NCBI GenBank assembly: GCA_903941205.1
Contig: CAJAOB010000046.1
Span: 1 to 33,497 of the forward strand
DNA: 33,497 nucleotides
Reading direction: 5' to 3'
From: an uncultured Burkholderiales bacterium
Lineage (GTDB): Bacteria; Pseudomonadota; Gammaproteobacteria; Burkholderiales; Burkholderiaceae_C
How positions within the stretch are numbered: position 1 is the first letter of the stretch; every line of letters starts with the position of its first letter. The position numbers were made by a program, and so were the translations under genes. The notes under the pieces are model-generated. The model was given only the letters and a program-made list of their open reading frames with translations. It searched no databases and was not told the DNA's origin. Below are positions 11,637-28,536 of this stretch, in pieces.

Positions 11637-12083
11637 TTAAGGTGCAGCCGTCTCAGGTGCGCGGGGCTTGTGGATGAAACGGTCAGCCGCCTCGAACAGC
11701 AGCATGCCGGCAATCATGGCCACCACGAACACAGCGGCCTTGGGCTGCCCAGAAAACATGGACACCAGCCCCGGCCCGGGACAAAAGCCCGCCAGACCCC
11801 AGCCCGCGCCGAAGGCCAGGGCGCCGACCACCAGCCGGCGATCAATCTGCTTGGCCTTGGGCAGGTGCAGGGCGCCGCCCAGAAAGTTGGTCGTCCGCTT
11901 CTTGGCCACCGCGAAGGCGAAAACCCCCACCATGATGGCGCCTCCCATCACCAGAGCCAGCGATGGATCCCAGGTTCCGAACAGGTCCAAAAAGCCCAGC
12001 ACCTTGCCCGGATCAGTCATTCCCGAGAGCAAAAGGCCCATGCCGAAGAGCAGGCCGGCGACAAATTCACTGATTCTTTGCAT
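11637..12083 (-). CDS. YeeE/YedE-type transporter subunit (DUF6691/PmpB-like)
   Basis: 148 aa; GLLFGMGLLLSGMTDPGKVLGFLDLFG.WDPSLALVMGGA; GAGWGLAGFCPGPGLVS. Confidence 0.88.
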   Translation of the reverse strand: MQRISEFVAGLLFGMGLLLSGMTDPGKVLGFLDLFGTWDPSLALVMGGAIMVGVFAFAVAKKRTTNFLGGALHLPKAKQIDRRLVVGALAFGAGWGLAGFCPGPGLVSMFSGQPKAAVFVVAMIAGMLLFEAADRFIHKPRAPETAAP

Positions 12084-12094
12084 GTTGCGACTCC

Positions 12095-12532
12095 TTAAAA
12101 CAGATGACGAACCACAAACACCATGGCAAAACCGGCCCCCATGAAGGTCAGGGTTGCCACCAGCGAGCGCGGCGACAGGCGGGAGAGGCCGCAGACGCCG
12201 TGTCCGCTGGTGCAGCCCGAGCCATAGCGCGTGCCCAGCCCCACCAGAAGGCCGGCTGCGACGATCAGCGCGTAGCTCGCATCAATGCGCGGAGCAGATA
12301 TGACACCTGCTGGTGCCAACCAGGCAAACACAGCGGGTGCTGCGGCCATGCCCAGCAGGAAGAAAATCCGCCAGCCAATGTCGCCCCTGCGAGGTGAAAG
12401 CAGTCCACCCAGAATGCCGCTGATGCCCAGAATGCGGCCGTTGAACAAGATGAAGATGGCCGATGCCAGCCCCAGCACGATGCCGCCAATCAATGATGCC
12501 CACGGCGTGAAATGAGTCCAATCAATTACCAT
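12095..12532 (-). CDS. YeeE/YedE family protein (PmpA-like)
   Basis: 145 aa; [38 protein letters not shown]. Confidence 0.9.
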
Positions 12533-12535
12533 TTT

Positions 12536-12856
12536 TTACCCCTTAAGCTGACCGCAAAATTGACCATAAAGCACCTCCATCACGGCTAGCGCCTGTGGGC
12601 TGGAGATCTGGTAGTAGATGTTCTTGCCCTCGCGGCGGGTGCTCACCAGCGCTTCTTCGCGCAGCACGGTGAGCTGCTGCGAGAGCGTAGGCTGCACGAT
12701 GCCCAGCATTTCTTCCAGCTCTCCGACCCGCCTTTCACCCTGGCTGAGCTGGCAAAGAATCATCAGGCGATCGGCGTTGGCCAATACCTTCATGAGCCTG
12801 CAGGCCTGTCCAGCCGCTGCCTGCATTTCAGACAGCTCCAACATCACTGAATTCAT
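12536..12856 (-). CDS. ArsR-family regulator, BigR/SqrR-like (persulfide-sensing type)
   Basis: ATG at 12856 preceded by AGGAGG. ACRLMKVLANADRLMILCQLSQGERRVGELEEMLGIVQPTLSQQLTVLREEALVSTRREGKNIYYQISSPQALAVMEVLYGQFC; Cys at the two BigR/SqrR-type positions (RLMILC, GQFC). The upstream start at 12946 lies inside the promoter palindrome. Confidence 0.85.
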   Translation of the reverse strand: MNSVMLELSEMQAAAGQACRLMKVLANADRLMILCQLSQGERRVGELEEMLGIVQPTLSQQLTVLREEALVSTRREGKNIYYQISSPQALAVMEVLYGQFCGQLKG

Positions 12857-12930
12857 CGATGCCTCCTGTGTTTGGCTTGAAATTCGCGCTTCTTCCACGC
12901 TTTTTTCATGCTTTTGATTCCATCGTGATT

Positions 12931-12971
12931 TATAGTCTATTGACAAATAAACTATCTGTCAATAGACTATA
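12931..12971. promoter_or_regulatory. Perfect inverted repeat (15-bp arms, 11-bp loop) with overlapping divergent promoters; candidate BigR-type operator
   Basis: TATAGTCTATTGACA-aataaactatc-TGTCAATAGACTATA. TTGACA (12940-12945) + 17 bp + TAGACT (12963-12968) on plus; mirror copy on minus. Confidence 0.8.
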
Positions 12972-12999
12972 AAAATCTTAATCAAAAAAGGAGGCCAGC

Positions 13000-13875
13000 A
13001 TGACCACATCCAGCGCCAAACCTCAGGTGCATGGCATCTTTGACCCTGCCACCTGGACCGTGACCTATGTGGTGCACCAAGGCCCTGGCACGGCCTGCGC
13101 CATCATCGACTCGGTGCTCGATTACGACCCCAAGTCCGGTCGCACCCGCCACACTTCGGCGGCCAAGGTGATTGATTACGTTCGCAGCAACCGCTTGCAG
13201 GTGCAATGGATTCTTGAAACCCACGCCCATGCCGACCATCTGACCGCCGCCTCCTACCTGAAGGCCCAGCTGGGCGGCAAAACCGCGATTGGCAGTCACA
13301 TCACCACCGTGCAGCAGGTATTCAAGGGCATTTTTAACCTCGAGCCCGGCTTTGCGGTGGACGGCTCGCAGTTTGACCACCTGTTTGCTGAAGACGAGGA
13401 AATCAAGGTGGGTGAACTCAGCGGCAAGACCCTCTACGTGCCTGGCCACACCCCGGCCTGCGTGGCCTATCAGTTTGGCGACGCCGTGTTCGTCGGCGAT
13501 ACCCTGTTCATGCCTGACGTGGGCACCGCCCGCTGCGATTTCCCGGGGGGTGACGCCAAGGCCTTGTATGCATCCACGCGCAAGCTCCTGAGCCTGCCTG
13601 CGGATACCCGCCTCTTCATGTGCCACGATTACCCGCCGAACGGCCGTGAGGTGTCCTTCGAGAGCACCGTGGCCGAACAGCGCGCGCGCAATATCCACGT
13701 GCATGACGGCATCACCGAAGCCCAGTTCGTTGAAATGCGCACCCGGCGAGACGCTGGGCTGGAAATGCCGGTGCTGATCCTGCCGGCCGTGCAGATCAAC
13801 ATCCGCGCCGGTGAAATGCCGCCCAAGGAAGCCAACGGCGTGGCTTACGCCAAAATTCCCCTGAATGCGCTCTGA
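13000..13875 (+). CDS. MBL-fold metallohydrolase, Blh/ETHE1-like persulfide dioxygenase candidate
   Basis: 291 aa; ETHAHADHLTAASYL, VPGHTPACVAY, FVGDTLFMPDVGTARCDFPGGDAKALY, MCHDYPP; RBS aaggagg. Confidence 0.88.
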   Translation: MTTSSAKPQVHGIFDPATWTVTYVVHQGPGTACAIIDSVLDYDPKSGRTRHTSAAKVIDYVRSNRLQVQWILETHAHADHLTAASYLKAQLGGKTAIGSHITTVQQVFKGIFNLEPGFAVDGSQFDHLFAEDEEIKVGELSGKTLYVPGHTPACVAYQFGDAVFVGDTLFMPDVGTARCDFPGGDAKALYASTRKLLSLPADTRLFMCHDYPPNGREVSFESTVAEQRARNIHVHDGITEAQFVEMRTRRDAGLEMPVLILPAVQINIRAGEMPPKEANGVAYAKIPLNAL

Positions 13876-14494
13876 GATGGCTGGACTCAGTCACCCTCAG
13901 GCGACTTGGGACAAGCGCTTTTCAACGCCCGACTACGTATTTGGCGAGGAGCCCAACGCATTTTTGGTCGCTCAAACCGCTGCTTCGGGTCAGGGCCGAG
14001 CCCTGGCTTTGGCCGACGGCGAAGGGCGCAACAGCGTGTGGCTGGCCCGACAAGGTTTTACCGTGGACGCGTTTGATTTTTCTGCGCCTGCCGTGGAAAA
14101 AGCCAAGGCCCTCGCTGCAAAACACCGGGTCAAGGTGAACTTCAGTTGCACCGATTGGCAGGCGTTCGACTGGAAGCCCGCCCACTACGATCTGGTGGCG
14201 GGGATCTTTTTTCAGTTCGCCACACCCGATGAGCGGACCGAGCTGTTTGGAAAGATCAAACATGCCTTGAAGCCAGGTGGCACCGTCCTCATTCAGGGTT
14301 ACGGCAAGAACCAGCTCAGCTACAACACCGGTGGACCCGGCAAGTTGGACCACCTCTATGACGAAGACCTGCTGAAACACGCCTTTGACGGCTTTGAGGT
14401 GCAGGTCTGTGAAACCTATGAGACCAGCATCGAGGAAGGCGCAGGCCACAGCGGCATGTCGGCTTTGGTGGGTTTTGTTGCAAAAAAACCGTGA
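13865..14494 (+). CDS. Class I SAM-dependent methyltransferase (TehB-like)
   Basis: 209 aa; WDKRFSTPDYVFGEEPNAFL, ALALADGEGRNSVWLARQGFTVDAFDFS, LKPGGTVLIQGY. Start may be 13877. Confidence 0.85.
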   Translation: MRSEMAGLSHPQATWDKRFSTPDYVFGEEPNAFLVAQTAASGQGRALALADGEGRNSVWLARQGFTVDAFDFSAPAVEKAKALAAKHRVKVNFSCTDWQAFDWKPAHYDLVAGIFFQFATPDERTELFGKIKHALKPGGTVLIQGYGKNQLSYNTGGPGKLDHLYDEDLLKHAFDGFEVQVCETYETSIEEGAGHSGMSALVGFVAKKP

Positions 14495-14732: not shown

Positions 14733-15719
14733 TCATCTGCTGCTCTCGCGCAAGTCGATGCCCTCATGCCGGGCAATTTTTTCGAGCGCATTTTCGAACA
14801 GCGAACGTGCCGACCCGGAAATTGACTTGAGGTAGGCGTGCAGGTGCGCGTCTTCAGCGCTTTTATTCAGGCATTCCTGGCTGTATTCCTCAAAGCTGGC
14901 GAGTTGCGAGATAAGTTCGGCGACATGCCGGGGGCATTCGCACAGGACCTTGCTTGAAATGCCTGCGACTCGGCTCAGCGTGGCCTCAGAGTATTTGCGG
15001 CTTGCGATCACCACGCCGGCGGTACCGAACTCCCTGGCGCGGTCTTGGTCGACAAACAAGACGGACTGCAACAATTCGGCCAGTTCGCTGTCGGAGATCG
15101 GTTCCCGCCTGACGATCAGGCCGGAGAATTTCATGGCCTGAACCACCGCCTCGGTCGCAAAGTTGTAGATCACGATGGCCAGCGCGATGTTGTGCTGTTG
15201 GACCAGGGCCTGGATGGCTGTGTTCACGCCGGGCTGCAGCGTGTTGACCTTGATCAGCAAGACTTGCGGCTGGCCCGATAAACCGGCCTGGCTCGCGGTC
15301 GCCAAGTCGACCAGCACGTCGGTGACCTTGAGCTGGTTGGGCTTCAAGCCCATGGCGAAGTTCGTCGATTCAATCCGGTTGGCCATGCCAAGCCCCACGA
15401 CGGCCAGCGATACAGCCTGCCCCGGGGTGGCCAGACTCTTGGGCGTCTGGGCCGGCCCGTTGCTCATGCGCCGCAAATGATCCAGATCCAGCCCTGCAAT
15501 GGTTCTGATCGCATGGCCTGCCTGGGACAACTGCTTCAGGAGCAGTGCTTTTGAGATGTCATGCTCCTGGAACAAACGCTGTCTCCCCTCCGTCTTGACC
15601 GGACTGAAGGCTGCGTAGCGGGTTTCCCAGATGCGCAGGGTCGAGATCGGTATGCCGGTGGTCTTGGAGACCGCGCCTATCCGGTGAAGTGGAGGTGTTG
15701 ATAAGGAAGATGGGGGCAC
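14733..15719 (-). CDS. MerR-family transcriptional regulator with long non-HTH C-terminal domain
   Basis: 328 aa; HRIGAVSKTTGIPISTLRIWETRYAAFSPVKTEGRQRLFQEHDISKALLLKQL; no DxHxxG cobalamin motif seen in the C-terminal part. Confidence 0.85.
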   Translation of the reverse strand: MPPSSLSTPPLHRIGAVSKTTGIPISTLRIWETRYAAFSPVKTEGRQRLFQEHDISKALLLKQLSQAGHAIRTIAGLDLDHLRRMSNGPAQTPKSLATPGQAVSLAVVGLGMANRIESTNFAMGLKPNQLKVTDVLVDLATASQAGLSGQPQVLLIKVNTLQPGVNTAIQALVQQHNIALAIVIYNFATEAVVQAMKFSGLIVRREPISDSELAELLQSVLFVDQDRAREFGTAGVVIASRKYSEATLSRVAGISSKVLCECPRHVAELISQLASFEEYSQECLNKSAEDAHLHAYLKSISGSARSLFENALEKIARHEGIDLRESSR

Positions 15720-15834
15720 GGGTATTTTTTGAGCAGGTTTTGAGTAGATATTATGACGAAAAATCTAAGAAAAGAACATTTATTGGAGTTTGAGTAGCTA
15801 AAGGCGGCACAATCTGCGCTTGGACGGTGAAAAA

Positions 15835-16332
15835 ATGATCTCTCAGAAAACCATCAACGCGATCGAGCTTTGCACCCTTCTGGCACGGCAGCAAAACCAT
15901 GGTTGCACCACCACCTCAGAACTCGCGGCAAGGCTAGGTCTGACGTCCTCCTACCTCGAGAAAATCATCAAGCCGCTCAGGCAACACAATCTGGTCAGCG
16001 CAGTCAAGGGGCCGGGCGGCGGTTACCAGGTCCGAGGCGATCTCTCGCTGATCTCCATGTGGGATATCGCCTCGGTGTTCGAGCAAACATTCGCTGTAGC
16101 TGCCAAAGACGCGGACCTGCGCCCGGATGAGCCGGCCGCTTATGAGCTTGGGCTGGAGCAGATCGTCAAGGATGCCTTGTGCAGCTTCACCTTGGCGGAT
16201 TTTGTAGATCTTTCATCCGATCCTGGCAAGTCCTGTGCGCAAGAGATGGGCCGTTTCAAGTTCAAGCCGCTGGCTGCACCATTCATACCGAAAGCGCCCA
16301 ACTCGGTGTTTCAGCTGTCCATGGCGCTTTGA
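15835..16332 (+). CDS. Rrf2-family regulator
   Basis: MISQKTINAIELCTLLARQQNHGCTTTSELAARLGLTSSYLEKIIKPLRQHNLVSAVKGPGGGYQVRGDLSLISMWDIASVFEQ. ATG 15835 preferred over TTG 15820. Confidence 0.85.
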   Translation: MISQKTINAIELCTLLARQQNHGCTTTSELAARLGLTSSYLEKIIKPLRQHNLVSAVKGPGGGYQVRGDLSLISMWDIASVFEQTFAVAAKDADLRPDEPAAYELGLEQIVKDALCSFTLADFVDLSSDPGKSCAQEMGRFKFKPLAAPFIPKAPNSVFQLSMAL

Positions 16333-16354
16333 GCCGCGGCCTGGCGAAAGTTTC

Positions 16355-16642
16355 ATGTCCAGGAAGTTAGCCTTGCTCCCAACCACGCTGACCCCAGGCG
16401 ATATTTCGGCCGCGATCCAGATGGCCTGGGAAGACAGGACTGCCTTCGAGACCATCAGGGAGCGCATCGGCCTGACCGAGCCGCAGCTCATCGGACTGAT
16501 GCGGCGCGAACTCACGCCAAATTCTTTCCGGTTGTGGCGCAGCCGGATGCGGGGGCGCGCGACCAAGCACCGCGCTTTGAGAAGCCCGGACATGAAGTTT
16601 GACGACCGCGCGATCGCCGATCATCGCCGGGCAAATTGTTGA
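16355..16642 (+). CDS. TIGR03643/DUF2805 family protein
   Basis: From ATG 16355: MSRKLALLPTTLTPGDISAAIQMAWEDRTAFETIRERIGLTEPQLIGLMRRELTPNSFRLWRSRMRGRATKH. Confidence 0.82.
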   Translation: MSRKLALLPTTLTPGDISAAIQMAWEDRTAFETIRERIGLTEPQLIGLMRRELTPNSFRLWRSRMRGRATKHRALRSPDMKFDDRAIADHRRANC

Positions 16643-16666
16643 GACCTGACGAATTGGGAGCCTGTC

Positions 16667-16843
16667 ATGAATGACGACCTTAGATGTTGCGGAACCGGTA
16701 CTTGCATCATCAATGCGGAAGGCCTCTGCTGGTGCGGCCAGCAATGGGACGGGGAAAAGATGTGTTTCCCGGAGGCTGCGGGCAGCCTTGCGCCCAAGCC
16801 AGCGCAAGAGGCTGCAAGCCAGGCGCCTGAAGGGGATGCGTGA
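16667..16843 (+). CDS. 58-aa Cys-rich small protein (not in supplied ORF track)
   Basis: Translated by hand: MNDDLRCCGTGTCIINAEGLCWCGQQWDGEKMCFPEAAGSLAPKPAQEAASQAPEGDA*. Stop overlaps the downstream GTG start (GTGA), suggesting translational coupling. Confidence 0.7.
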   Translation: MNDDLRCCGTGTCIINAEGLCWCGQQWDGEKMCFPEAAGSLAPKPAQEAASQAPEGDA

Positions 16844-18114
16844 GCGCCCGATCAGCCGAACATCCGGTCACCCTGCTTAAAACCGGCGCGCTCGATCTTT
16901 TCGCCGCGCACCCTCAGGAGTCCCAGGCCTTGCCGCCTTCGCGAGGCGCCGCCCTGGCCCGCCTCGCACAAGTTCGGCCCGCGGCCTATGCGCGCACGCG
17001 CAATCATCTCGACGGTGCGGTGACGGGTCTGTCTGCCTACCTCACGCACGGTTTGCTGACGCCGCACGAGGTGCTGGCCGGGGTGCTGGCAAAAGGCGCT
17101 TTGCCGGTGGGACACAAGCTGGTGTTCGAACTGGGCTGGCGCGTGTTTTTTCGCCACGCCTGGTCCCACCTGGGGGACGGTATCGAGAATTCTCTGCACC
17201 CGGGCCCCATGCCGGACCACGCCTACCTTGCCGACTTGCCTGCCGACATTCGCCAGTCCCGCACCGGGCTGCCGGTGATTGACGAGGCGGTGCGCACGCT
17301 TTACGCCACGGGCACGCTGCACAACCACGCCCGCATGTGGCTGGCCAGCTATGTGGTGCATGTGCGCCATGTTCACTGGCGAGCAGGCGCCGACTGGCTG
17401 GTGGCGCACCTGCTCGACGGTGACCTCGCCAGCAACCACCTCAGTTGGCAGTGGGTCGCGGGTACGGGCAGTCATAAGCCCTATTTGTTCAATGCCGAGA
17501 ATGTCGCTCGCTACGCCCCGGCGCATTGGCACAGCCCCGGCTCGGTGATCGATGATTCCTACGAGGCGCTGGAGGCGCTGGCGCGCGGCGCGCGGGCGGC
17601 CATTGCCGGCGCGCGACCCGGCGATGGCAGGGGCGCGGCCCTGGCCGAGCCGGCCTTGTGCGCCATGCCACCTGCCGACCTGGGGCTGCATCCGCTTGAC
17701 GAAGCCACTGCCGAACGGCTTCGTGGCCGCGAAGTCTGGCTCGTCCACCCCTGGGCACTGCGGGCGCCTCCGCCAGACCTGCCAGCGTCTGCTGTCGTTA
17801 TCGGCGTGTACTTTTCCGAATACCACCAGCGCAGGCCCTGGCCTGAAGCCCGCTGGCGCTGGGTTGATGCGGCCATGGCGCAGGTGGCCCCGCAGCGCTG
17901 CCTGGTTGACGCCACACGCCTTGCCGCCGCGCTGGCCGGGGCGGCGCAGGTGCGCAGCGTCGATGATCCGCACCTCACGCGCTGGCTCGGGCCGCTGGCC
18001 CGGCTCGACGCTGCACCAACGCTGTTCCCGCATGTCGAGCGGCGCTGCGACAGTTTCTCGCAGTGGTGGACCCGTGCGACGCGCGGTTTGCAAGGCGCCG
18101 GGGAATTGCTATGA
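16840..18114 (+). CDS. Photolyase/cryptochrome-like FAD-binding domain protein, apparently permuted domain order
   Basis: GTG start. FAD-domain motifs begin near the N-terminus (GLSAYLTHGLLTPHEV; GLPVIDEAVRTLYATGTLHNHARMWLASYVVHVRHVHWRAGADWLVAHLLDGDLASNHLSWQWVAGTGSHKPYLFN); C-terminal alpha/beta region (VWLVHPWALRAPP...WPEARWRWVDAAMAQV). Confidence 0.85.
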   Translation: MSARSAEHPVTLLKTGALDLFAAHPQESQALPPSRGAALARLAQVRPAAYARTRNHLDGAVTGLSAYLTHGLLTPHEVLAGVLAKGALPVGHKLVFELGWRVFFRHAWSHLGDGIENSLHPGPMPDHAYLADLPADIRQSRTGLPVIDEAVRTLYATGTLHNHARMWLASYVVHVRHVHWRAGADWLVAHLLDGDLASNHLSWQWVAGTGSHKPYLFNAENVARYAPAHWHSPGSVIDDSYEALEALARGARAAIAGARPGDGRGAALAEPALCAMPPADLGLHPLDEATAERLRGREVWLVHPWALRAPPPDLPASAVVIGVYFSEYHQRRPWPEARWRWVDAAMAQVAPQRCLVDATRLAAALAGAAQVRSVDDPHLTRWLGPLARLDAAPTLFPHVERRCDSFSQWWTRATRGLQGAGELL

Positions 18115-19262
18115 GCCAGTCCGGCTCACCCGAAATGCTGCAGGTGCTGTACGACGGCGAATGCCCTTTGTGCCGGCGCGAAATCGCCCATGTCAAAGGC
18201 CTGGCCCAGCGACGCGGCGACAGCGGCCTGTGCTTTGTCGACATCAGTGGCGCGGTCCATGACGACAGTTTGCAGGGTGTCAGAACCCATGGCGCCAAAA
18301 TCAGCGGCGACAGCAATTTCGCTGCGGATCGCGCCACGCTGCTGGCGCGCTTTCACGTGCAGCGCGCTGACGGCTCGCGGCTGGACGGCGCCCGGGCCTT
18401 TGTGGCCATGTGGCAGCGCTTGCCCGGCTGGCGCTGGCTGGCCCGGCTGTCCCGTCTGCCGGGTGCGCTGGTGTTGCTGGAGTTGGCTTACCGCGGCTTT
18501 CTGCGCGTGCGGCCGGCGCTGCAAGCGCTGGCCCGCCGCCTGGATTCAACCGGCCCTTCAAGGCTGCGCCGGCCCGGACGCGCGGCTGAAAGTGCACCCG
18601 GCGCGACCCAAGCGCCGGCCCTGTCTGACTGCGCGACCCAAGCGCCGGCCCTGTCTGACTGCGCGACCCAAGCGCCGGCCCTGTCTGACCGCGCGACTCA
18701 AGCGCCGGCCCTGTCTGACCGCGCGGCCCCGTCGCCGGCCCTGTCTGGCTTCCTCGAACGCGAGTTGCGTTCCGACCATGCCGGGGAGATGGGCGCCGTT
18801 TTTATCTACCGCGGCATCGCCGCCGTGGCCACCCGGCGCGGTAACGCTGAACTGCTGGCTTTCGCCCAAGGCCACGGCGCGACCGAAGCGGAGCACCTGC
18901 GGCTCATCGAGGCCTGGTTGCCGCCTGCGCGCCGAAGTCGGCTGCTCGGGCCCTGGCGTCTGGCCGGCTGGTTGACTGGCGCGCTGCCGGCGCTGCTGGG
19001 CGCGCGTGCGGTTTACGCCACCATCGCCGCGGTCGAGACCTTTGTTGACCGCCATTACCAGCAGCAGATTGACCACCTGCAGCGCCATGGCGGCCCGCAG
19101 GGCTTGCTGGCGCTGTTGCTGCGCTGCCAGGCTGACGAGCGCCATCACCGCGACGAGGCTGCGGCACTGGCCGGCTCGCCGGCACCCCGGCTGCTGCGGC
19201 TCTGGTGTGCGCTGGTGGGCGCCGGTTCGGCCGCAGCCGTGGTCCTGGCGCGCCGTGTCTGA
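18111..19262 (+). CDS. DCC/DUF393 thiol-oxidoreductase domain fused to Coq7-like diiron domain
   Basis: N-term VLYDGECPLCRREIAHVK (DxxCPxC); C-term ERELRSDHAGEMGAVFIYRG, ATEAEHL, AVETFVDRHYQQQ, DERHHRDEA (diiron Glu/ExxH ligands). ATGA overlap with upstream gene. Confidence 0.88.
   Translation: MSQSGSPEMLQVLYDGECPLCRREIAHVKGLAQRRGDSGLCFVDISGAVHDDSLQGVRTHGAKISGDSNFAADRATLLARFHVQRADGSRLDGARAFVAMWQRLPGWRWLARLSRLPGALVLLELAYRGFLRVRPALQALARRLDSTGPSRLRRPGRAAESAPGATQAPALSDCATQAPALSDCATQAPALSDRATQAPALSDRAAPSPALSGFLERELRSDHAGEMGAVFIYRGIAAVATRRGNAELLAFAQGHGATEAEHLRLIEAWLPPARRSRLLGPWRLAGWLTGALPALLGARAVYATIAAVETFVDRHYQQQIDHLQRHGGPQGLLALLLRCQADERHHRDEAAALAGSPAPRLLRLWCALVGAGSAAAVVLARRV
18601..18750 (+). 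repeat. 5 x 30-bp in-frame tandem repeat encoding a 10-aa linker unit (ATQAPALSDC/R)
   Basis: 18601-18630 and 18631-18660 identical (gcgcgacccaagcgccggccctgtctgact); units 3-5 progressively diverged. Confidence 0.95.
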
Positions 19263-19286
19263 CAACCGAAAAAAACGGGAGTCCCT

Positions 19287-19679
19287 GTGATTGAAGTCCT
19301 TGCTCTTTGGGTCGTCGCACTGTTGTTCGGCGGCATGGTGCTTTATTCCTTTGGCTTTGCCGCCTTTGTGTTCTCGGCGCTACCCGCAGCGCTTGCCGGG
19401 CCCACGCTGCGGCGAGCCTTCCCGCATTTCTACCTCTTCGTCATCGTCACGGCCGCTGTGGCCGCGGCGCTGATGCTGTCGCAAGACAAAGAGTCCGCCC
19501 TTTACCTGGCCATCATCGCCGTCACCACGGTGCCCGCGCGCCAAATCCTGATGCCGGCGATCAATGCAGCCACGGACAGTCAGGCCAGGGCCCGCTTCAA
19601 ACTGCTGCACGGCCTTTCGGTGCTGATGACGCTGGCGCACATCGGTCTGGCGGCTTGGGTCCTTGCGCGCTTTGTTTGA
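19287..19679 (+). CDS. Small 3-4 TM membrane protein (DUF4149-like)
   Basis: GTG start; MIEVLALWVVALLFGGMVLYSFGFAAFVFSALP...FKLLHGLSVLMTLAHIGLAAWVLARFV. Confidence 0.75.
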   Translation: MIEVLALWVVALLFGGMVLYSFGFAAFVFSALPAALAGPTLRRAFPHFYLFVIVTAAVAAALMLSQDKESALYLAIIAVTTVPARQILMPAINAATDSQARARFKLLHGLSVLMTLAHIGLAAWVLARFV

Positions 19680-27652: not shown

Positions 27653-28536
27653 CGACCCCGCATCAAACCAGCTTCAGGCTTGCCCAGGAGCCCGTGCGGA
27701 CGCAGCAGCAGGATCAGGAACAGCAAGGAAAAAATGATCGTGTCCGTCAGCCCCGACGGCAAATACGCCACCGACAGGGTCTGGATCATGCCGAGCAACA
27801 AGCCGGCCACCAGGGCCCCCGGAATGCTGCCCAGCCCGCCCAGAATGATCACCACGAAACCCCGCAGCAAGAAGGGCTCGCCCATCATGAAGTGGATGTT
27901 GTTGAAGGCCAGCCCGACCATCACGCCTGCGGCAGCGGCCAGCGCGCCCGACATGAAAAAAGTCTGAAAGAAAACGAAGTTCGGATTGACCCCGCTCAGG
28001 ATGGCGGCGCGCTCGTTGCCGGCCACGGCCCGCACCTGGCGCCCGGGCGCGGTTCGGGACAAATACAGCGTGATGAACAAGACCAGCGACGCGGCAAAGA
28101 ACGACATCATCAGTTGCAGCGCCGACACCCGCAGGCCCCACAGCTCGAAGATCACCACCGGAAAAGTCTCGAAGGGAAAGCGAAGAATCTGGGTTTCGGA
28201 GATTTTTTGCGCCAGGGTGATGATGATGAGGTTGGCACCAATGGCCGAGATGATGGCGCCGAACTCTTCTTCTCCCTGCTTGCGCAAGCGCCTGAAGGCG
28301 ATGAATTCGATCATGACGCTCAAGAGGCCGCCCGCCAGCACGCCGAGCACGAAGCCCAGCCACAAAGGCCAGCCGGCCAGCACCGAATACAGCGCCACGA
28401 AGGCCCCGACCATGAAAACCGCGCCATGGGCCAGGTTCAAGATACCGTGGATGCCAAAGACCAGCGTGTAGCCGAGGGCGAACAGCGCATAGACGCCGCC
28501 GACGATCAGGCCATTGAGTAATTGTTGAGCAATCAT
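27649..28536 (-). CDS. Branched-chain-type ABC permease, LivH type
   Basis: From ATG 28536: MIAQQLLNGLIVGGVYALFALGYTLVFGIHGILNLAHGAVFMVGAF. Confidence 0.94.
   Translation of the reverse strand: MIAQQLLNGLIVGGVYALFALGYTLVFGIHGILNLAHGAVFMVGAFVALYSVLAGWPLWLGFVLGVLAGGLLSVMIEFIAFRRLRKQGEEEFGAIISAIGANLIIITLAQKISETQILRFPFETFPVVIFELWGLRVSALQLMMSFFAASLVLFITLYLSRTAPGRQVRAVAGNERAAILSGVNPNFVFFQTFFMSGALAAAAGVMVGLAFNNIHFMMGEPFLLRGFVVIILGGLGSIPGALVAGLLLGMIQTLSVAYLPSGLTDTIIFSLLFLILLLRPHGLLGKPEAGLMRGR

Follow-up and report, generated by a model that had tools for sequence, protein, structure and literature searches.

A candidate light-controlled photoreactivation operon with a domain-permuted short photolyase in an uncultured Burkholderiales bacterium

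The 33,497-nucleotide stretch analyzed here (the window), from an uncultured Burkholderiales bacterium, holds at positions 14733 to 19679 a cluster of seven genes that we read, with moderate confidence, as a photoreactivation operon controlled by light or photo-oxidative stress, in which a permuted CPD photolyase is joined by membrane redox accessories. Its central protein, P0005, has its FAD domain first. It is likely that the short photolyases are circular permutants of a single origin, their antenna-type alpha/beta domain being not missing but placed at the C terminus. The seven-gene set itself combines two modules, each of which is conserved on its own.

RESULTS

Gene content and junctions of the locus

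Matches to Pfam and NCBIfam models confirmed the seven ORFs and the families that a sequence-only reading of this DNA had assigned to them. The minus-strand gene encodes a 328-aa MerR-family regulator (14733 to 15719; PF13411, E 2e-11) and is divergent to the plus-strand genes, from which it is separated by an intergenic region of 115 bases with 37% GC. The plus strand encodes, in order, an Rrf2-family regulator (15835 to 16332, with an alternative TTG start at 15820; PF02082, E 7e-19), a DUF2805/TIGR03643 protein (16355 to 16642; PF10985, E 1e-25; TIGR03643, 89.4 bits with a cut-off of 66.55), a Cys-rich protein of 58 aa from an orphan family, recognized by the alignment of its homologues (16667 to 16843), the permuted short photolyase-like protein P0005 of 424 aa (16840 to 18114; PF03441, FAD_binding_7, E 1e-25), a 383-aa fusion of a DCC1-like thiol-disulfide oxidoreductase with a COQ7-like di-iron domain (18111 to 19262; PF04134, E 2e-16; PF03232, E 2e-34), and a small membrane protein, DUF4149 (19287 to 19679; PF13664, E 8e-11).

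The photolyase-like gene starts within the end of the Cys-rich ORF at GTGA (16840), an overlap of four bases, and the DCC-COQ7 gene starts within the end of the photolyase-like gene at ATGA (18111). Both junctions had been pointed out before and are present in the sequence; the genes that they join may be co-transcribed. The source genome is a MAG, 89% complete with an estimated contamination of 6.6%, and the overlapping reading frames at 16840 argue against an assembly joint at that position. Rfam and tRNA scans gave no features. No sigma-70-like promoter was found either, which counts against the operon reading. Beside the cluster, at 11637 to 14494, DUF6691, YeeE/YedE-type sulphur-transport, ArsR, and metallo-beta-lactamase genes resemble an operon for sulfide detoxification of the BigR type.

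FAD domain, active site, and class of P0005

The FAD domain of P0005 covers residues 96-222 by Pfam and about 35-248 in the predicted structure, and the protein can be aligned to the second halves of solved photolyases. Among 56 aligned homologues, E97, W100, W180, N199, W203, and W205 are invariant and M166 is near-invariant; in the alignment, E97, W100, M166, W180, N199, W203, and W205 correspond to E274, W277, M345, W359, N378, W382, and W384 of the E. coli enzyme. P0005 shares with the class I/III CPD photolyases (E. coli PhrB, Thermus Phr) the FAD_binding_7 fold and the equivalents of E274, W277, M345, N378, W382, and W384, but its domain order is reversed, about 70 C-terminal residues of the FAD domain are replaced, and W306, which is third in the Trp electron chain of the E. 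coli enzyme, is not conserved.

As described in PMC9649867 and PMC9178010, members of the short photolyase-like (SPL) class (Xu et al. 2021) resemble P0005 in being eubacterial and shorter, with class I/III-like FAD and substrate-binding regions and no N-terminal alpha/beta (PF00875) domain. We infer that P0005 belongs to this class, an identity judged from the class description rather than from SPL reference sequences. The four conserved cysteines, an optional trait of some SPL members, are absent from P0005, a difference from those members, and are carried by its Deinococcus relatives. P0005 does not have the class I CPD photolyase order, in which an N-terminal DNA_photolyase domain precedes the FAD domain; it reached 86 bits with the DASH cryptochrome model TIGR02765, whose cut-off is 317; and it is without the PF04244 domain that, with four cysteines, characterizes FeS-BCP/prokaryotic 6-4 photolyases.

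Two other photolyase-family genes are present in the genome, a class I-like one on contig C158 and an FeS-type (DPRP) one with DUF2256 on contig C108, so the main repair work may fall to an enzyme other than P0005. SPL, class I, and FeS-BCP proteins are likewise found together in the genome of Synechococcus elongatus, whose PhrC is, like a protein of R. fascians, a published SPL. In 2021, Xu reportedly found that a member of the SPL class repairs CPDs. Because the residues of CPD repair are kept and relatives of P0005 adjoin other photolyases, repair remains the best reading of its role, and the earlier contrast with a plain DNA-repair gene is not supported. The lost third Trp, the other photolyases in the genome, and the redox neighbors (DCC, COQ7, HIPIP, SDR) and regulators around the gene could instead indicate a cryptochrome-type photosensor or a redox flavoprotein, in an operon that works chiefly as a light-signalling or redox module. 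We regard this as unlikely, since the equivalents of E274, W277, M345, and N378 are invariant or nearly so in the 56 sequences and a pure sensor would need none of them; PMC9649867 describes the SPL class as CPD repair enzymes.

Neighborhood of the photolyase gene across genomes

Relatives of P0005 occur in 78 of the 301 genomes of the family; one homologue, from Aquabacterium, is 77% identical to it. The neighborhood sample consisted of 60 family loci and the 80 closest named loci, and only strong same-family matches were kept in the neighbor clusters; some clusters that appeared conserved in a first pass were false and came from shadow ORFs in GC-rich DNA. An FeS-type photolyase lies immediately 5' of the P0005 relative in 31 of the 60 family loci and in 36 of the 80 close relatives. 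The family loci also contain DUF2256 (31 loci), a second photolyase (19), a divergent MerR (17), SDR (16), and HIPIP (12), with DCC immediately 3' in 8 and COQ7 in 2. Of the 80 closest named loci, 34 have DCC directly 3' and 11 have COQ7; it is mainly in the closest relatives that DCC-COQ7 follows a P0005-type gene. With 0 to 2 DCC genes and 0 to 3 COQ7 genes per genome in the 20 genomes searched, chance adjacency is negligible.

The recurrence of neighbor pairs in other genomes, on which the sequence-only reading had staked its proposal, was borne out. Neighbors shared with the loci of relatives support a recurring photolyase/light-stress neighborhood, and the linkage of DCC and DCC-COQ7 to photolyase is conserved in other genomes as well.

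Several further arrangements were seen. A UbiB/ABC1 kinase was considered as a general SPL neighbor and rejected, being present at 0 of 20 sampled loci. At four alphaproteobacterial plasmid loci the permuted photolyase homologue adjoins an AarF/ABC1/UbiB kinase gene, which is another link to quinone-type proteins. One locus from another class of the phylum has a DCC gene 5' of the permuted photolyase, and the link to DCC may therefore not be confined to Burkholderiales. In two Persicobacter (Bacteroidota) loci, a second photolyase-family gene directly follows the permuted photolyase, overlapping it in one of them.

The DCC-COQ7 fusion and DUF4149

In the fusion protein, PF04134 matches residues 12-137 and PF03232 residues 215-380, and the DCC domain carries the DGxCPxC motif as LYDGECPLC. 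The COQ7 part has the PF03232 domain and, by eye, intact-looking di-iron ligand motifs in common with COQ7 (DMQ monooxygenase), but it lies far below the equivalog cut-off (NF033656, 32.7 versus 180 bits) and has a DCC domain attached. Because of this low score, and because a separate COQ7 on contig C197 matches the COQ7 family better than the fusion does, the COQ7 domain of the fusion is probably not the housekeeping enzyme. Elsewhere the fusion is kept beside an FeS photolyase (L322) or DUF4149 (L323), and a DUF4149 gene follows DCC or DCC-COQ7 in L107, L323, and L326. A COQ7-like gene lies 5' of an FeS photolyase at six loci. The DCC and COQ7 domains are joined by a linker with a 30-bp tandem repeat (18601 to 18747; 4.9 copies, 94% match) that encodes repeats of ATQAPALSD, so the linker may vary in length.

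The regulatory module and its candidate operator

The MerR//Rrf2-DUF2805-Cys cassette recurs in L215 and L216, where photolyases lie within 5-8 kb of it, and without DUF2805 in L217, the MerR proteins of these three loci being 58-79% identical; over all orthologues beside Rrf2-DUF2805-Cys the range is 58-81%. DUF2805-Cys pairs are present in several more genomes, and homologues of the Cys-rich protein, DUF2805, and MerR recur beside other photolyases. Homologues of the Cys-rich protein were found in 38 of 251 family genomes, and 46 distinct sequences align on the motif RCCGtGTCiI..(E/D)GrCWCGQqWdG.kMc; searches of Pfam, NCBIfam, and PHROG gave zero matches. These small proteins stand recurrently beside DUF2805, DUF3429, or photolyases. 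The Rrf2 protein is below the NCBIfam superfamily cut-off and does not match the IscR, NsrR, or CymR equivalogs.

The MerR protein has no B12-binding domain and scores 21 bits, against 400, with the LitR/CarH class I model NF052513. Over residues 2-321 it is 36.5% identical to a Burkholderia anthina MerR whose cluster also contains photolyase, cfa, folE, and DUF2256, which supports grouping it with the MerR proteins of light clusters in Burkholderia. In Burkholderia, class III LitR is without a B12 domain, and its spectrum changes on illumination (PMC9758184); the absence of this domain from the MerR protein, together with about 36% identity to the B. anthina protein, fits that class. On this comparison with the B. 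anthina MerR, we treat the MerR protein as a candidate class III LitR-like light regulator.

The divergent promoter region carries a candidate operator, the 11-bp direct repeat TTGAGCAG-GTT-TTGAGTAG (15729 to 15747, plus strand), which in the form TTGAGTAG-N3-TTGAGTAG is common to four orthologous MerR//Rrf2 intergenic regions. About 50 bp farther on lies a third half-site copy, TTGAGTAG (15790 to 15797, plus strand), which is aligned in three of the four regions and degenerate in the fourth. Shuffles gave an expectation of 0.02 matches per window, and the repeat is the sole match in the whole genome at two or fewer mismatches. A repeat match at 28514 was dropped because it lies inside a coding region.

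Two modules in one cluster

The full seven-gene set was found at no other locus examined, and the left part (MerR//Rrf2-DUF2805-Cys) and the right part (photolyase-DCC-COQ7) each occur elsewhere without the other, so a single ancestral operon of all seven genes is not supported. The overall interpretation given earlier is supported for the recurring light-stress neighborhood but not for the seven genes as a unit, nor for the contrast with a plain repair gene. These facts, with the difference in GC between the two parts (0.57-0.62 on the left versus 0.69-0.71 on the right), might also mean that a regulator cassette was inserted by recent rearrangement beside an unrelated photolyase-DCC-COQ7 group with which it has neither function nor transcript in common. 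Such an accident is quite unlikely in view of the four-base overlap of the Cys-rich ORF and the photolyase gene, the congener locus L069, in which Cys, DUF2805, an FeS photolyase, and the P0005 homologue stand in a row, and the recurrence of Cys, DUF2805, and MerR homologues near other photolyases.

Probable domain permutation of the short photolyases

A Pfam search gave no PF00875 (DNA_photolyase) match in P0005, including its N terminus. The AlphaFold (AF2) model (pLDDT 88) has two domains, a helical FAD domain and then a five-stranded alpha/beta domain (residues about 288-424), which closes with a helix at SFSQWW. This arrangement, with the FAD domain N-terminal and the alpha/beta domain after it, agrees with the description of the protein as permuted in the sequence-only reading. 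When the C-domain was folded alone, its top PDB match in Foldseek was plant CRY2 (prob 0.96, E 0.01), followed by HUP-type folds (cytidylyltransferase, pantothenate synthetase, USP) with weak E-values.

More distant relatives are informative on the origin of this domain. Deinococcus proteins, 45% identical to P0005 over the FAD domain, match PF00875 in their C-terminal region (E 7e-4 and 1e-3), and in Deinococcus sp. QL22 (L288:2396-3687) the FAD and alpha/beta domains lie in separate, overlapping ORFs, so that the permuted photolyase is naturally split; the second ORF matches PF00875 at E 2e-4. By hhalign, the Deinococcus C-domain matched the N-domain of ordinary photolyases with a probability of 96-98% (E 4e-9 to 1e-11), and in profile comparison the alphaproteobacterial C-domains did so at E 2e-4; both matches are specific and run nearly end to end. 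In the controls, 0 of 60 column shuffles scored as well, and unrelated controls gave E values of at least 0.02. The betaproteobacterial C-domain alone had no significant hhalign match to photolyase or FeS-BCP N-domains; pooled with the alphaproteobacterial C-domains, it matched the photolyase N-domain at E 0.007. By eye, the FAD-first proteins also have a terminal aromatic motif like that after the antenna domain in normal photolyases. The FAD-domain tree unites all FAD-first proteins in a single clade (100/100), which lies among class I/III sequences under a midpoint rooting used for drawing only.

Since the C-domain of the Deinococcus relatives still matches DNA_photolyase, these proteins are permuted rather than missing the domain, and we conclude that the members of the FAD-first clade are circular permutants that arose once. 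In the case of P0005 itself, homology to its more distant relatives and the predicted structure together lead us to the same conclusion. That the C-domain is instead an unrelated HUP/Rossmann-like domain joined to a photolyase FAD domain, as its weak Foldseek matches to other HUP-type folds and the lack of a significant profile match for the betaproteobacterial domain alone would allow, is very unlikely against the nearly end-to-end match of same-clade Deinococcus and alphaproteobacterial homologues to the photolyase N-domain and the shared aromatic motif.

DISCUSSION

If the cluster is a photoreactivation operon, the MerR protein, as a class III LitR-like regulator, would keep both divergent transcripts repressed in darkness by binding the 11-bp direct repeats of the divergent promoter. 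Exposure to light or ROS would relieve this repression, with Rrf2 perhaps sensing redox or Fe-S state. P0005 would then bind FAD and use blue light to repair UV dimers, acting as a CPD photolyase with the FAD domain first and the antenna-type domain second. The DCC-COQ7 and DUF4149 proteins are probably located at the membrane, where thiol oxidoreductase and di-iron hydroxylase activities may work together on a quinone or lipid and so handle photo-oxidative damage.

Photoreactivation clusters are already known. The LitR/PplR light-inducible photolyase clusters of Pseudomonas and Burkholderia (PMC9758184) share MerR, photolyases, SDR, an FAD oxidoreductase, and DUF2256 with the surroundings of homologous genes, whereas the window lacks cfa/ufa and fol and adds Rrf2, DUF2805, the Cys-rich peptide, and DCC-COQ7. 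What look new are the permutation, its conflict with the view that the domain is lacking, the operator, and the DCC-COQ7 linkage. We found no relevant literature on circular permutation or permuted domains in photolyases, the original SPL description being represented by the papers that cite it. In PMC9649867 and PMC9178010, SPL proteins are described as being without the alpha/beta domain, whereas P0005 has one at its C terminus; it has also been proposed that all photolyases and cryptochromes descend from SPLs, and the tree in PMC9649867 is rooted on them.

With its candidate operator defined, the cluster makes light control in Burkholderiales testable, and it offers a way to ask why photolyases are accompanied by COQ7-like and DCC proteins. 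If the permutant reading is true, SPLs would not represent an early stage with a single domain, and trees that are rooted on them, as an ancestor of photolyases and cryptochromes without the second domain, would need to be revisited. A simpler ancestral form becomes less convincing if the alpha/beta domain is there in permuted position, and the history of the family would need re-examination.
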